This document shows, in pieces, positions 1-5,965 of a stretch of 6,029 nt of DNA (positions are counted from its first letter, which is position 1; each line of letters opens with the position of its first letter). The notes below the pieces were generated by a model. It did not search any database. It worked only from the letters and a program-made list of their open reading frames with translations, and had not been told where the DNA came from. A program made the translations under genes and the position numbers. This DNA is from Desulfuromonas sp. SDB (lineage in GTDB: Bacteria; SDB-A): assembly GCA_001412365.1 (NCBI GenBank), contig LKUE01000419.1, positions 1-6,029 on the forward strand. Direction: 5' to 3'.

Positions 1-186
1 TGATATTTACCTGATTGACATTTAATTTACCCATCTTGAATCTCATCCCCACTCCACCTGGAGATTGATAGACCATGGAAACACCAGGTGAAGGTGTAAA
101 ACCCTCACTGAAATCAAAGGTTTCCGCAGTTAAATTGCCAATGAGTAATAGGAAAGAAAGAAAGAAAGAAAGAAAGAAAACTTCAT
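1..186 (-). CDS. Secreted or outer-membrane protein, 5' end only, apparently phase-variable and OFF
   Basis: Minus-strand gene cut by the left window edge. ATG at 186-184 follows a strong Shine-Dalgarno (GAGAGGGG, 6-base spacer). The start runs through a 28-base TTTC tract. As written it encodes MKFSFFLSFFLSYYSLAI and stops at TAA (132-130). The frame that stays open to the window edge is offset by one base: it reads LLLIGNLTA, then ETFDFSEGFTPSPG, then VSMVYQSPGGVGMRFKMG, then KLNVNQVNI. That frame has no ATG, GTG or TTG upstream of the tract before an in-frame TAA. Adding one tetranucleotide joins it to the ATG and gives a 22-residue signal peptide (MK, Phe/Leu/Ser core, cleavage at LTA|ET). 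The mature start, with Gly-rich short strands, would fit a surface beta-protein, but I do not recognise the family. A sequencing or assembly slip in the tract is the main alternative. Frame logic is seen directly; phase variation is inferred. Confidence 0.72.
152..179. repeat. Tetranucleotide microsatellite (GAAA)7 inside a signal-peptide coding region
   Basis: Seven perfect GAAA units on the plus strand (TTTC on the coding minus strand), followed by one extra A. It begins six bases after the minus-strand ATG. A tetranucleotide unit changes the reading frame by one base per copy gained or lost. Counting from the ATG, 5, 8 or 11 copies fuse the start to the downstream open frame; 7 copies stop at 132-130, and the third frame meets a TGA soon after (in the Thr-Phe-Asp region of the open frame). 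Read as codons the tract cycles Phe-Leu-Ser-Phe in every frame, so it always makes a hydrophobic core. This is the layout of contingency loci known from Haemophilus and Neisseria. Confidence 0.9.
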
Positions 187-409
187 CTTTTACCCCTCTC
201 GATTAAGTTTTCAGTATTTTAATGGATATTTTTTATTAAGTAAACTTTTATGTAATCTAAGTGCTATAAATTGTGTAAAATCCTCATTAATGATCATTTT
301 ATATTTATTAAAATCAACATTCATATTATCATTAATTGTATTATTGAAAAACAATGAAGTTTCAAAGTGATACAGATAAAATCATTTTACAATTTTAAAC
401 CATAAGTAT
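187..409. promoter_or_regulatory. Divergent intergenic region, AT-rich, presumed back-to-back promoters
   Basis: About 220 bases between two divergent starts, strongly AT-rich, without an open frame worth calling. It should hold promoters for both directions, but I see no convincing -35/-10 pair: TTGAAA at 344-349 lacks a good -10 at normal spacing, and a TTTACA on the minus strand is equally unsupported. It contains a 10-base palindrome AATGATCATT (289-298) and a 9-base inverted pair ATTAATGAT (286-294) / ATCATTAAT (328-336) whose arms are 42 bases apart. These could be operator sites or chance in AT-rich DNA. Confidence 0.4.
193..200 (-). promoter_or_regulatory. Shine-Dalgarno for the minus-strand gene
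   Basis: On the minus strand GAGAGGGG is followed by a six-base spacer (TAAAAG) and ATG at 186-184. This fixes the start in front of the repeat tract, and so supports reading the tract as coding. It matters because no start codon exists in the downstream open frame before the tract. Confidence 0.7.
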
Positions 410-475: not shown

Positions 476-2563
476 CAACAAGCGGATATAGAAAACTTAA
501 ACTACAGCTTAGAGGACATCTGCCCATTGGATTCAGTGTTGGGATTGATTAATCTGAGTATTGAGGATCTGGGTTACCATCCTCAGCATTACTGGATATC
601 CTACCCCCATCCTGATCAGATCCCTTACACTCTTCCGGTATTCAGCGATCTTTTTGCCCAACCCCAATTCATTTATCCCTATATACGGCAGGCAGCCCGG
701 GAGTTTCAGGTTTATTCTGATTCCCAACAGGTGGACAGCAATCCTCAGTTTCTGTATAAGCTAAGCCATCATCTGGGGATAAACCGGATTTACACCGGTT
801 TCCGCTCCTACCGATCAAACCTGGAGTTATTTGAAACCTCCGGGGACTCCTCAGAGATTTTAACTGAACTGCGCCTGCTTGAAAAATCGCTGGATTATGT
901 CGAGGAAATTTCCCTCAAATGGGGATACTTAGCTGATTCAGGTCAACAATATGCTCAATGGAGACAAAACCGTAATTTATGGTTTGATTGTTTTAATAAT
1001 AATAGCAGGGGACAGAAATACTATGCAATTCTGCTGTACAACCTGGCGGAAACAGTAAACCAACTGAACCTGGGACTGAGAAATGTTGATCGGGAATTGA
1101 TCATTTCATATTTAAGTAACTGCCAATCAGATGATCCAGATCAGTTGAGATTAAGGGAAGATATCTACGACAAAATTGACTTTGCCAGTTTATGGTACGG
1201 CAGTTTGAAATTATCGGAACTAGCTGGCTATTTAGTAGTCCATGGTAAAAACTCCGAGTTAATCCCTGATACCACCCTCTCTCTTTTCACTCCCCTGGGT
1301 CAGGTCATTATCGGCGGCAGCGGAGAAGACAGTTTCATCTGTGGTGATGAACCAATTTTAGCAATGGTGGATTGGGGCGGTTCTGACTATTACCTGAGCA
1401 AGCCTGATTCCGGAAATTTTTATTTAATCCTGCTTCTGGACTGGCAGGGAGATGATATTTATCAATCCGTTCAAACTCCCGGTCTAGCCTGTGGTATTTT
1501 AGGCATTTCCATTCTGGTGGATGTTGAGGGAAATGATCATTACACTGCTGACCGCAACAGTTGGGGGTGGGCTGACCTGGGATTTTCCGCTTTGTACGAC
1601 CTGGATGGGGACGACTACTATTCCTGCGGGCAGCAGGGTTTGGGGGCAAGTTATTCCGGAGTGGGAATTTTAGCTGATTTTAAGGGTGAAGATCAATACT
1701 CTATTTATCAGGAAGGTATTGGGTTCAGCGCTTACGGAGGCATCGGTATCTGTGCTGACCGGGAGGGAGATGATTTTTACTACGCTGAACCGGAAGCGGA
1801 GAAAGCAGGATTAGAAGGAGATTATCACTCCGGGGGAAAAATTCTGAGTAATTTAGCCATGGGAGCAGGATGGGGACGCCGGGCGGATATGACTGATGGG
1901 CATTGCTACGGAGGAGGATTGGGCATGTTAATTGATCTGGAGGGAGACGATGATTACTACGCAGGTAATTGGGCCCAGGGGGTAGGTTACTGGCTGGGGA
2001 TGGGATTTCTATACGACGGTAAAGGTAATGATATCTACCAGAGCTGTTATTTTGCCACCGCTTCCGGAGCCCATTATGCCATGGGGGCAATGATAGATGA
2101 AGGGGGAAATGACTTCTACCAGATGTGGGGAGATTCAGTGGAAGTCCCGGAATGGGGATGGGCGGGAGCGGGGATTAGTTTCGGCTGGGATTATGTAATT
2201 GCCCTGCTGGTCAATTTAGGCGGAGATGACTTTTACCAGGCAAAAAAAATTGCACTGGGTTGTTCCCAGATAAGATCCAATGCTCTGTTCATAGATATCA
2301 GCGGTGACGACTGCTACCAGTTCCCCCAACAGCAGCAGGGGATGGGATCTTCGGACTTCCGGGATTACTATGTGAAACCATTTTACTGTTTCAATAAAAG
2401 CATTGGAATTTTTATTGACCAGGGAGGAGAGGATAAATACTTAAACTACCTCTATTGCCCTGATCAATTAATCCCCTCCTCCATCTGGTCTAACAATTCT
2501 TTCTGGCTAAACCCTGAATCCACCTATCTGGACTGCTACGGGGTAGGGATTGATCTTCCGTGA
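410..2563 (+). CDS. Secreted DxxGxDxY-repeat protein, predicted beta-solenoid, unknown function
   Basis: 717 residues. The start is chosen because it opens a clean signal peptide: MKHN, hydrophobic core 5-17, likely signal peptidase I cut near LS|QQ (22/23). C18 and C20 lack a proper lipobox. Residues ~25-290 are mixed, helix-rich and rich in Tyr, Trp and Asn; I recognise no domain. Residues 302-678 carry 13 copies of DxxGxDxY (anchors at 302, 321, 344, 371, 397, 423, 450, 509, 536, 563, 602, 629, 670), mostly 26-27 apart, with GxG-rich linkers such as QGLGASYSGVGILAD. This suggests a solenoid with one turn per repeat. The GGxGxD flavour recalls RTX calcium repeats, but the period is three times longer. 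The mature part has about 14 Cys and no membrane segment. No Shine-Dalgarno is visible before the ATG. It ends four bases into the next gene, in GVGIDLP, which looks like the start of another repeat. Surface or periplasmic location is inferred; function unknown. Confidence 0.85.
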   Translation: MKHNLLLIILLIWILLPCLCLSQQADIENLNYSLEDICPLDSVLGLINLSIEDLGYHPQHYWISYPHPDQIPYTLPVFSDLFAQPQFIYPYIRQAAREFQVYSDSQQVDSNPQFLYKLSHHLGINRIYTGFRSYRSNLELFETSGDSSEILTELRLLEKSLDYVEEISLKWGYLADSGQQYAQWRQNRNLWFDCFNNNSRGQKYYAILLYNLAETVNQLNLGLRNVDRELIISYLSNCQSDDPDQLRLREDIYDKIDFASLWYGSLKLSELAGYLVVHGKNSELIPDTTLSLFTPLGQVIIGGSGEDSFICGDEPILAMVDWGGSDYYLSKPDSGNFYLILLLDWQGDDIYQSVQTPGLACGILGISILVDVEGNDHYTADRNSWGWADLGFSALYDLDGDDYYSCGQQGLGASYSGVGILADFKGEDQYSIYQEGIGFSAYGGIGICADREGDDFYYAEPEAEKAGLEGDYHSGGKILSNLAMGAGWGRRADMTDGHCYGGGLGMLIDLEGDDDYYAGNWAQGVGYWLGMGFLYDGKGNDIYQSCYFATASGAHYAMGAMIDEGGNDFYQMWGDSVEVPEWGWAGAGISFGWDYVIALLVNLGGDDFYQAKKIALGCSQIRSNALFIDISGDDCYQFPQQQQGMGSSDFRDYYVKPFYCFNKSIGIFIDQGGEDKYLNYLYCPDQLIPSSIWSNNSFWLNPESTYLDCYGVGIDLP
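1313..2443 (+). repeat. 13 coding repeats, DxxGxDxY, period 26-27 residues
   Basis: Encodes residues 302-678 of the repeat protein. The invariant core is G at position 4, D at 6 and an aromatic (nearly always Y) at 8, preceded by a hydrophobic strand such as GILVD or LFID. Copy-to-copy spacings are 19, 23, 27, 26, 26, 27, 59, 27, 27, 39, 27, 41. The long steps equal one turn plus insertions of about 32, 12 and 14 residues. The copies differ at DNA level, so this is an old protein repeat and not a recent tandem duplication. The first copy (GGSGEDSF) is degenerate, with F in place of Y. The stretch is visibly more GC-rich than the next gene, partly from Gly and Asp codons. Confidence 0.9.
2545..2563 (+). 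promoter_or_regulatory. Shine-Dalgarno and GTGA start/stop overlap
   Basis: AGGGA at 2545-2549 lies 10 bases before GTG at 2560, and the GTG shares bases with the upstream TGA (2561-2563). No other usable start occurs before the cyclase core, so GTG is well supported. Such 4-base overlaps normally mean one mRNA and coupled translation. Confidence 0.75.
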
Positions 2564-5500
2564 AATTATTTAAAGAATTAGATAAGCTGCTTGATCAGGA
2601 TAGTTACAATGAATTTTATAAAACTTCTTCCGGAAAGGAAAAATTAAATCTTCAGGAAGGGGAACGAAGGAATGTAACAATCCTATATGCCGATCTCAAG
2701 GGTTTCACCTCTTTATCAGAAATATTGGATCCGGAACAGCTTAGGGAAATTGCCGACCGGATACTGCAGCTGTTCACTATTTCAATAAAAAAATACGGTG
2801 GTTATGTAGATAAATACGAAGGCGATCTGGTAATGGCTTTATTTGGAGCAAAAAAAACTACCGAACAGGATACTCCACGGGCAATATCTGCCGGTCTATC
2901 CATGATTGAAAAGCTTAAGGAATTCAACCACGCTTTACATAAGATCGAAGGATTTGAAAACTACAGCTTCCAGGTCAGGATAGGGATAAATTCAGGATTA
3001 GTTACTACAGGAAGAGTCGGTGAAAAAAGGGAAGGTGACTTTACCGTATACGGGGATCCAGTTAATCTTGCTTCCCGTTTGGAATCTAATGCTCCGGTAA
3101 ACCGCATCATGATAACCCAGGCAACCATGGAACAGGTAAACAAATGGTTTGAATTTGACAATTTAACTGAAATAATGGTTAAAGGCAAATCCAAGCCAAT
3201 TCCAGTATGTGTAGTCAAAAACCAAAAAAATAAAAATGTTTTATCTGAAGATGTTCATGCACCAATCATGGTGGGCAGAGAAAAGGAATTAAACCAGATT
3301 TATGAAATATACCAAAAAATTGGCAAACAGCAGGATCATTTTTCGGTAACAGTTATTGGCATCAGGGGGAAAGCGGGAATAGGGAAAACCAGATTTATCT
3401 CTGAATTTTTAAGCAAGATAGGTCCACGAAGAAATATTTTATGGGGGGAACCACCCCGCTATGCTCAATATCCTTACTGTCTTTTCAACTCTCTGTTAAA
3501 AAATTTCTTTGAATTGACATCAAATCACTCCATAGATTTAGAGGAATTTAATACAGCTTGGAATAAATTCATAACATCTTTATATGAAGATGATATTTTT
3601 GAAGAATTAGAAGATGCAGCAAATCTTATTGCAAATGTATTAGGAATTAAAACTGATGACCCCAGACTGAATCTGGGAACAGAAGAAAGAAAAATTCACC
3701 TTAAGTCAGCTATAAGGTTATTTTTAACTGCCCTGGCTGTAAAAGAAAATAAATCAAATAAACCTTTGGTTATAATTCTGGAGGACCTTCATTTAAGTGA
3801 TGAAATCTCCAGGGAAATTCTGGATTATTTTCTTACCTGTCTGGATATTCAGGAACTATCCCTAGATATCATGATCGTAATATCTTACCGGGACGAATTT
3901 AATTTAAGCAGTCAAATTATTGACCAAAGTCAATTTCAGGAAATAAATCTGAAACCGCTGGGGGTAAAACAACTTAAAATTCTATTAGTGAATTTAAGCA
4001 AAGATCAGGAAATGGACGAGATGATCATAAAAAATCTAATGATAAAATCCCAGGGTAACCCCCTTTATTTAAGAGAATGGATTAAATTGATTAACAATCT
4101 TAAAGATATAAAGGTAAATGAACTGCCTTTGCCGGATAGTTTAAATGCATTGATCTTATCCAGAATTGACCAACTCCCCCCAAAACCAAAAAAGTTACTC
4201 CAAACATTATCTGTTTTTGGAGAGAAGTTCAGCTACGATTTAGTAGCGAAATTATACCAAAAATTTGATGATGGTAATGATTTAAAATTCCTGCTGGAAA
4301 TATTGACAATTTCCGGATTTATTGAGAAAGATTTAGATTTTCAATCAGGTCAGTTTTCATTTACCAATATTTTAATTCAGCAGGTTGCCTACCAGTCCAT
4401 GCTAATTTCCAACCGGAAAATCTTACATAAGCTGGCAGCTGAAATAATTGAAGAAAATTATACAGAAAGACTGGAAGATTACATCTATCAGCTGGCTGAT
4501 CATTATAAAAACACCGATAATAAACAAAAAGCGATGACTTACCTGAATCAAGCAGGTCAAAAAGCAATGTTTAATGAAGATTATCCCCAGGCTTATGAGT
4601 TTTACTCCATCCTGAATAAATTTTATCAAGCGGATGGCATCTCCATCACTCAATTGACGGTTAAAAAAACTCCCGTTGACAATAACCTAAAATATTACAT
4701 TGAAATGCTGCTCGATCTTTGCCGGGTTTGTCTGGTATTAGGCTACTGGCAGGAGACAGAAAGATATTTACAGTTAACTGTAACTTACCTGGAATCCCAG
4801 AAGCGAAGCCATTTATTGGGAACTGCCTATAATGAAATAGGAAAATTTTTACTGCAGAAGGGAAAAATACAAGAAGCCATTGGATGTTATAAAAAAGCAG
4901 AGAAAATCTTTTCCGATCCTCCTGACCCTCAACAACTTTTTATCACCTACGATGGAATGGGTATTGCCCACACCGTACAAAGTGAATATCAGGAAGCGCT
5001 AAATTATCTTCAGAAAAATTATAAATTAGCAAAGACAACTAATAATCTAGATAATCTTTCAACCGTAATTGGCCATATTGGAATAATCCATAATATGACC
5101 GGAAATAAACAAAAAGCACTAAAGTGTTTTTTCGAGCAATCAGAAATATCTAAGAAGATACAGGGAAAAAAAGGTTTATCCGCTGCTTACGGAAATATCG
5201 GCACTTTATTTATGGAAACGAAGAAAAACAGGCAGGCTTTGGAATATCTGGAAAAAGATCTACATCTATGCCTGGAGATTGGAGACAAGCGGGGTTTGGG
5301 AATAACCTATACCAATATGGGGATAGTATACTTTCAGCTGAAGAAATTGAAGGAAACATTATCTTACCTCAATAAAGCAAAAAAGATATCTGAAGATTTA
5401 GGGGATCGGGAAGGATTAGCCATTGCCTACGGGTATCTGGCGGATGTTTTTTTCCAACAACAAAATATGGAGAAGGCAATTGAATTTATTAATAAAAGTT

Positions 5501-5847
5501 TAGAACTTTGTACCGAAATAAATAATTTATACTTTAAAAGCCATTTTATTGAAAAAAAATCAGAGTATTTATTCACTCTGAACAAAATAAGTGAATCAGA
5601 AAAAGCAGCTATTCAATCCAGGGACATTGCTGAGGAGATTCAATATTATCCCGCCTATATTAGCGCTCTAAGTCAACTAATTATAATTAAAATTTCGAAA
5701 GTTGAAGACCGTGATTCAGCTGAAAAATTAATTGATCAATTTATAGAAAAAACAAAGAAATACAAATCAGATTCTGATTTACAGTCAACAATTGATAATG
5801 CTTTAAGTAATATCAATAAATTTATAAATAAAAAATGGCTTAAATAA
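2560..5847 (+). CDS. Class IIIb adenylate cyclase - STAND/AAA ATPase - TPR protein
   Basis: 1095 residues, cytoplasmic, no signal or membrane segment; predicted to make cAMP from ATP. Cyclase domain ~35-220: metal Asp D45 (ILYADLKGFTS) and D89 (DKYEGDLVMALFG), adenine-specifying K85 and T162, transition-state N169 and R173 (FTVYGDPVNLASRLE). The spacings match class IIIb enzymes such as cyanobacterial CyaC. ATPase ~235-515: VGRE entry, Walker A GKAGIGKT (270-277), Walker B-like VIILEDLHLSDE (404-415), SYRDEF (442-447), NPLYLREW (500-507). A winged-helix-like part follows (525-600: LPDSLNALILSRIDQLP; SVFGEKFSYDLV), then FTNILIQQVAYQSML (601-615). TPRs ~716-1027 serve protein contacts. Domain order resembles mammalian soluble adenylyl cyclase, with one cyclase domain instead of two. 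Translation is likely coupled to the upstream repeat protein. Guanylate cyclase activity is unlikely given K85/T162. The regulating ligand is unknown. Confidence 0.93.
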   Translation: MKLFKELDKLLDQDSYNEFYKTSSGKEKLNLQEGERRNVTILYADLKGFTSLSEILDPEQLREIADRILQLFTISIKKYGGYVDKYEGDLVMALFGAKKTTEQDTPRAISAGLSMIEKLKEFNHALHKIEGFENYSFQVRIGINSGLVTTGRVGEKREGDFTVYGDPVNLASRLESNAPVNRIMITQATMEQVNKWFEFDNLTEIMVKGKSKPIPVCVVKNQKNKNVLSEDVHAPIMVGREKELNQIYEIYQKIGKQQDHFSVTVIGIRGKAGIGKTRFISEFLSKIGPRRNILWGEPPRYAQYPYCLFNSLLKNFFELTSNHSIDLEEFNTAWNKFITSLYEDDIFEELEDAANLIANVLGIKTDDPRLNLGTEERKIHLKSAIRLFLTALAVKENKSNKPLVIILEDLHLSDEISREILDYFLTCLDIQELSLDIMIVISYRDEFNLSSQIIDQSQFQEINLKPLGVKQLKILLVNLSKDQEMDEMIIKNLMIKSQGNPLYLREWIKLINNLKDIKVNELPLPDSLNALILSRIDQLPPKPKKLLQTLSVFGEKFSYDLVAKLYQKFDDGNDLKFLLEILTISGFIEKDLDFQSGQFSFTNILIQQVAYQSMLISNRKILHKLAAEIIEENYTERLEDYIYQLADHYKNTDNKQKAMTYLNQAGQKAMFNEDYPQAYEFYSILNKFYQADGISITQLTVKKTPVDNNLKYYIEMLLDLCRVCLVLGYWQETERYLQLTVTYLESQKRSHLLGTAYNEIGKFLLQKGKIQEAIGCYKKAEKIFSDPPDPQQLFITYDGMGIAHTVQSEYQEALNYLQKNYKLAKTTNNLDNLSTVIGHIGIIHNMTGNKQKALKCFFEQSEISKKIQGKKGLSAAYGNIGTLFMETKKNRQALEYLEKDLHLCLEIGDKRGLGITYTNMGIVYFQLKKLKETLSYLNKAKKISEDLGDREGLAIAYGYLADVFFQQQNMEKAIEFINKSLELCTEINNLYFKSHFIEKKSEYLFTLNKISESEKAAIQSRDIAEEIQYYPAYISALSQLIIIKISKVEDRDSAEKLIDQFIEKTKKYKSDSDLQSTIDNALSNINKFINKKWLK
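2662..3219 (+). other. Class IIIb cyclase catalytic domain
   Basis: Residues 35-220 of the cyclase protein. All six active-site positions are present: D45 and D89 (two metals, 44 apart), K85 and T162 (adenine recognition), N169 and R173 (transition state, 4 apart). Thr at 162 instead of Asp defines the IIIb group, whose studied members are often stimulated by bicarbonate. Class III enzymes work as dimers, and with one domain per chain this one should homodimerise. Confidence 0.92.
3262..4104 (+). other. STAND/AAA-type ATPase domain
   Basis: Residues 235-515. Walker A lysine K276 and T277 are intact. The Walker B region reads ILEDLHLSDE, where the usual form in cyclase-linked ATPases is LEDLHWAD; the acidic pair E408/D409 is kept and Trp is replaced by Leu. 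The YRDE and NPLYL motifs downstream are standard. In STAND proteins nucleotide state switches an effector domain on ligand binding to the C-terminal repeats; applying this to the fused cyclase is inference. Confidence 0.88.
4705..5640 (+). repeat. TPR array with 40-residue period
   Basis: Encodes residues ~716-1027. Six clear repeats start at 756 (AYNEIG), 796 (TYDGMG), 836 (VIGHIG), 876 (AYGNIG), 916 (TYTNMG) and 956 (AYGYLA), exactly 40 apart. Each continues with a second helix such as QEALNYLQK or RQALEYLEKD. Weaker copies flank them near 716 and 996. Forty-residue TPRs form an extended superhelix and are typical of sensors that bind peptides or partner proteins. Confidence 0.9.
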
Positions 5848-5865: not shown

Positions 5866-5874
5866 CCCCCCCCC
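5866..5874. repeat. C9 homopolymer tract in intergenic DNA
   Basis: Nine consecutive C, 18 bases after the cyclase gene's stop. Not within a gene visible here. It could pair weakly with ATGGTGGGTT (5892-5901), but the stem needs an internal loop and has no T-run after it, so it is not called as a terminator. Confidence 0.85.
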
Positions 5875-5907
5875 ATCTGTATTCTATTATTATGGTGGGT
5901 TGTGGGC

Positions 5908-5965
5908 ATTAGTGTCCATTCGTGTTCTTGGCGGGGAAGTGTGCAGGGATTCGTGTAAATTAGTG
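5908..5965. repeat. Two copies of an ATTnGTGT-type extragenic repeat
   Basis: ATTAGTGTCCATTCGTG (5908-5924) and ATTCGTGTAAATTAGTG (5949-5965) match at 13 of 17 positions, 41 bases apart, and each is itself two ATTnGTG half-units 10 bases apart. I recall similar extragenic sequence in several environmental bacterial genomes, which would make this part of an interspersed family, but I cannot check its copy number. Confidence 0.6.

Follow-up and report, generated by a model that had tools for sequence, protein, structure and literature searches.

A TTTC Repeat Tract in the Predicted Signal Peptide of a Desulfuromonas sp. SDB Gene: A Candidate Phase-Variable Locus

The Locus and Its Genomic Context

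The stretch of DNA analysed here (hereinafter, the window) is a complete contig of 6029 bp (G000:C419) from the draft genome of Desulfuromonas sp. SDB (3.14 Mb in 433 contigs), an uncultured bacterium belonging to a deep and poorly known lineage and possibly free-living. Close to its left end, on the minus strand, an ATG codon is followed by a run of seven TTTC units, which raises the question of whether the number of units decides if a secreted protein is made. In our opinion, the (TTTC)7 locus is probably a simple-sequence (SSR) contingency locus of a phase-variable secreted protein, to which we assign a probability of about 0.58; its chief competitors are an assembly error of one unit and a neutral slip that may have inactivated the gene. 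The features involved are the following:

1–151, minus strand: downstream coding frame, i.e., the end of the signal peptide plus about 41 mature residues; open, with a codon log-likelihood of +7.8 bits over 49 codons
130–186, minus strand: short ORF of the seven-unit (OFF) allele, 18 codons plus stop (from translation)
152–179, minus strand: perfect tetranucleotide microsatellite (TTTC)7/(GAAA)7 of 28 bp, inside the signal-peptide coding region (TRF)
184–186, minus strand: ATG start codon of the secreted-protein gene (from the sequence)
193–200, minus strand: Shine-Dalgarno-like GAGAGGGG, a moderate match (from the sequence)
187–409, no strand: AT-rich divergent intergenic region between the putative switch gene and the 717-aa gene (from the sequence)

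The GC content of the contig (0.383) equals the median of the other 6-kb stretches of the genome, and in tetranucleotide profile it agrees with the bin, so that contamination was rejected. No contig overlapping the left end (position 1) was found; an 83% match of the left end in C35 lies inside a MgtE-like transporter gene and was discarded as a chance resemblance. Viral contigs searched for the locus gave no match.

Two genes on the plus strand occupy most of the window. The first one (410–2563) encodes a secreted-looking protein of 717 aa with repeated GDD.Y-type motifs, which matches no model in Pfam or NCBIfam; its homologues are distant (29–39% identity) and were retrieved in 13 out of 60 genomes, one of which is its own, as well as in a Zixibacteria MAG. 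A truncated partial duplicate of this gene (L002, G000:C146:6529-6852) is located beside a TPR gene: about 110 bp upstream and the first 68 codons are 84–90% identical, after which the frame diverges and stops. The second gene (2560–5847) encodes a 1095-aa fusion of an adenylate/guanylate cyclase, an AAA ATPase and TPR repeats, with a partial match, far below the model cut-off, to a TOMM kinase/cyclase model. Its GTG start codon overlaps the 3' end of the preceding gene, which suggests that the two genes might be translationally coupled.

The Repeat Tract and Its Rarity

According to TRF, positions 152–179 consist of GAAA × 7.0, 100% perfect, with a score of 56 and no mismatch; on the minus strand the tract begins 7 nt into the ORF, and both TRF and the sequence thus bear out the description of (TTTC)7 after an ATG given in an earlier note on this DNA. 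The tract is longer than expected by chance and its unit length is not a multiple of three: under a third-order Markov model, the expectation for any seven-unit tetranucleotide tract is ~3e-6 per 3.14 Mb genome. A genome sample of about 738 kb (15% masked) was also inspected, and the unmasked part of it (~626 kb in 140 contigs other than the window) contains neither tetranucleotide tracts of at least 4 units nor homopolymers of at least 10. No second copy of GAAAx4+G exists on either strand of the unmasked genome or in the three other genomes of the family used as relatives, and the best imperfect matches to TTTCx5 elsewhere in the genome carry three mismatches. The arrangement of tract, ATG and frame is real and far from chance. 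The fact that this locus is single, no other SSR of such a kind having been found in the genome, is a point against its being a switch.

At the opposite, intergenic end of the contig, a C9 homopolymer (5866–5874, plus strand), near the upper homopolymer length for this genome, adjoins a short imperfect repeat (5907–5925).

Reading Frames and Coding Evidence

The tract is located inside a reading frame, and the number of its units decides whether that frame is open or stopped. With seven units the ATG frame encodes MKFSFFLSFFLSYYSLAI followed by a stop, i.e., 18 codons, and the third phase meets a stop 11 codons beyond the tract, so the early closure of both other frames proposed in the earlier note holds. 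The same is true of the one-base offset, the open frame being shifted by −1 with respect to that of the ATG. The frame is open at n = 2, 5, 8 and 11 (n = 2 mod 3), and with any other n it stops after about 14–30 codons; at n = 8 it begins with MKFSFFLSFFLSFLLLIGNLTA and continues with ETFDF. The assembled n = 7 allele is, as predicted from its translation, OFF. The frame at 1–151 is in register only with n = 2 mod 3, and the gene is cut by the contig end: what had been called a long open frame does stay open up to that point, with only 61 codons seen from position 184 because the window is the whole contig and the gene runs off its end.

In order to assess the coding potential of the region behind the tract, a codon-usage score was trained on 291 ORFs of the same genome. 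In the 49 codons that follow the tract, the open frame reaches +7.8 bits, the other two phases, both containing stops, score −29 and −43, and all the plus-strand frames fall below −23; in the calibration, true coding frames ranged from 4.7 to 21.8 bits (5–95%) and shifted frames mostly fell below −10. The probability that 49 codons stay open by chance alone is about 4%, which has to be counted against a switch; the codon score is stronger evidence for a coding frame than mere openness. Up to the contig end, these codons are open and codon-biased.

Concerning the signals preceding the tract, GAGAGGGGTAAAAG precedes the ATG (186–184, minus strand). The Shine-Dalgarno had been described as strong; it is rather a moderate one, its GAGG core giving a 4-nt match to AAGGAGGT, a level (at least 4 nt) reached by about half of the 347 sampled ORFs of the genome; about 13% of the 347 match at least 6 nt. 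Promoter-like matches in the intergenic region 187–409 are at chance level only. From the upstream stop (a TAA located 6 codons before position 184) to the tract, the open frame contains no ATG, GTG or TTG, and the seven-unit allele therefore has no other ordinary start.

The Predicted Signal Peptide and the Mature Protein

The repeat codes for the hydrophobic core of a signal peptide predicted from composition, as in opa-like mechanisms. The ON leader MKFSFFLSFFLSFLLLIGNLTA (n = 8) is more hydrophobic than about 90% of the 347 sampled N-termini. Counted up to NLTA, the leader has 18 residues with 5 units, 22 with 8 and 26 with 11; judging from composition, each of these ON lengths is plausible for Sec export. 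The residue at −3 of the predicted cleavage site is Leu, acceptable but not ideal, which is a point against a switch.

As to the mature protein, no recognisable homologue of its 41-residue fragment was found in the family genomes, 290 genomes, Pfam, NCBIfam or PDB. Weak matches in C12 and G001 turned out to be out-of-frame readings and were rejected, as was a resemblance to biotin carboxylase: it involves a PSPG...SPGG motif of about 28 residues which recurs without any extension and is ascribed to chance. The comparison with the Opa family could make use of about 41 mature residues only, with Pfam and PDB matches devoid of meaning. Likewise, the fragment did not convincingly match the N-termini of peptidase C25 (gingipain-like) proteins, and its resemblance to a gingipain-type propeptide is pattern-like only, so that it cannot be assigned to that family. 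The peptidase C25 (gingipain) family itself has 18 matches in this genome, 16 of which are above the Pfam cut-off, and none in 14 control genomes.

A Possible Mechanism

On the basis of these data, the following mechanism might be envisaged. Slipped-strand mispairing at (TTTC)n would add or remove units of 4 nt; with a wrong unit number, translation from the ATG would meet a stop after about 14–30 codons, whereas with n = 2 mod 3 (5, 8, 11) a complete Sec signal peptide would head a secreted or surface protein. The TTTC repeat reads as Phe/Leu/Ser in all three frames and never as a stop; thus, three added units simply put another four residues (FFLS) into the core, any length of the tract extends this hydrophobic stretch, and the one thing that changes is the frame of what follows. 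Every ON length would then remain a plausible export signal. What the sequence shows directly is the tract, its rarity, the frames and the coding signal; variation in the number of units, export, a function for the protein and a benefit of switching are inferred. The earlier note had proposed an ON/OFF switch by slippage: the layout is exceptional in statistical terms, codon usage marks the alternative frame as coding, and no ATG, GTG or TTG in the open frame would rescue the OFF allele, all of which partly supports the proposal, built as it is on one allele and the first 61 codons of the gene.

TTTC Tracts in Other Genomes

A search for (TTTC)6 or longer tracts in 387 genomes from across the domain, most families being represented by one or two, retrieved only four genomes (that of Desulfuromonas sp. 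SDB, G072, G093 and G292), which are too few for statistics. The following tract is the one most similar to the (TTTC)7 locus:

1501–1524, minus strand, G072:C38 (L185): (TTTC)6, signal-peptide core of an SBP_bac_5 protein

It forms, in frame as assembled, part of a 519-aa family-5 solute-binding protein, whose frame would be shifted by any change of units that is not a multiple of three. The two tracts share the TTTC unit and the FFLS signal-peptide core; they differ in that the solute-binding protein, of an unrelated family, is in frame (ON) and the (TTTC)7 locus is OFF. That a tract of this kind again makes up a signal-peptide core, as in G072, counts in favour of a contingency locus. The tract of G093 is intergenic, and that of G292 belongs to a pyrimidine-rich stretch of low complexity in which no gene is listed; hence, of the other (TTTC)6 tracts, two out of three are outside signal peptides, which speaks against a switch.

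Alternative Explanations

The possibility that slippage, neutral or recent, has simply expanded a signal peptide rich in Phe, Leu and Ser in a gene of AT-rich sequence, and that a single event has turned this gene off (or it is becoming a pseudogene) with no selected switching, is unlikely, although it deserves consideration. It would agree with the assembled allele being OFF, with the presence of one such locus only in the genome and with the existence of TTTC tracts where a switch is implausible (the intergenic one of G093 and the low-complexity one of G292); moreover, the in-frame tract of G072 reveals that signal peptides can bear TTTC as an expressed core. However, the 49 codons past the tract keep their codon bias and show no further lesion, and 28 bp is far above what this genome otherwise tolerates. 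A tract of such length is expected to be hypermutable anyway, and the gene would therefore switch with or without selection favouring it. An assembly or consensus error, in which case the true tract would count 8 (or 5) units, a stable if unusual repeat, and the gene would simply be ON, is somewhat less probable again: the draft is in 433 pieces and a one-unit error would restore the frame, but the contig breaks 151 bp from the tract and not at it, and a tract of 28 bp fits well within a single short read, the majority length being the one usually assembled.

Two further explanations carry far less weight. The seven-unit allele might be expressed if ribosomes underwent programmed −1 frameshifting at the pyrimidine-rich tract, or from a non-canonical start; even though the open frame is indeed at −1 with respect to the ATG and the tract probably offers repeated near-cognate codons, its sequence contains no X-XXY-YYZ heptamer, no ATG, GTG or TTG precedes it in the open frame, and we know of no frameshift site within a signal peptide, so that this explanation is very improbable. 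That there is no gene at all, with ATG, tract and open frame combined by chance in an intergenic region, is hardly credible: apart from the chance-like resemblance to biotin carboxylase, the mature fragment lacks homologues in Pfam, NCBIfam, PDB and the 290 genomes, as this explanation would have it, but the codon score falls within the range of true coding frames and both alternative phases and the three plus-strand frames are far lower.

Comparison with Known Systems

In the opa genes of Neisseria, CTCTT repeats are located in the region coding for the leader peptide (PMC3960869). Like them, the (TTTC)7 locus carries its pyrimidine-rich repeat close to the start codon, within the part that codes for the predicted signal peptide, where the frame would lead either to full-length export or to an early stop (PMC3960869). 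The opa repeat is a pentanucleotide, and the genes are multi-copy, encode outer-membrane adhesins of a host-restricted pathogen and have had their switching measured; the locus described here is, by contrast, a single tetranucleotide locus without a recognisable homologue, in an uncultured lineage. In autB, AAGC tetranucleotides occupy the signal-sequence region and are mostly OFF (PMC5118866). As in autB (and autA) of Neisseria and Haemophilus, a tetranucleotide tract right after the start leaves one third of the lengths ON, and the allele at hand is OFF, as is usual in those genes (PMC5118866); those genes differ in encoding autotransporters, in the AAGC unit and in their polymorphism in many isolates, and the likeness is one of layout. 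In Haemophilus influenzae, where tracts of at least 3 units have been flagged as putative switches, tetranucleotide tracts change at a rate of about 1e-4 per generation (PMC2651432). Long 4-nt tracts within coding regions are common to H. influenzae and to the (TTTC)7 locus, but the former has many per genome, affecting surface structures such as lipopolysaccharide, and here there is one.

The mechanism is already known; what would be new is the host lineage, a modest novelty. A broader proposal is that a working signal-peptide phase switch exists in a deep, uncultured, possibly free-living lineage and that TTTC is a convergent, recurrent design. It is based on the (TTTC)7 locus and on the solute-binding protein of G072, and we advance it tentatively, considering it rather doubtful; if it holds, TTTC, whose translation is a hydrophobic core for export whichever frame is read, would be prone to turn into an ON/OFF switch of secretion in bacteria not related to one another. 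According to a 2025 review, multi-locus phase variation is apparently restricted to pathogens, possibly owing to database bias, and other phylogenies are wanted (PMC11868660). A solid case in an uncultured lineage, together with a second TTTC tract in a signal peptide of an unrelated family, would bear on this question.
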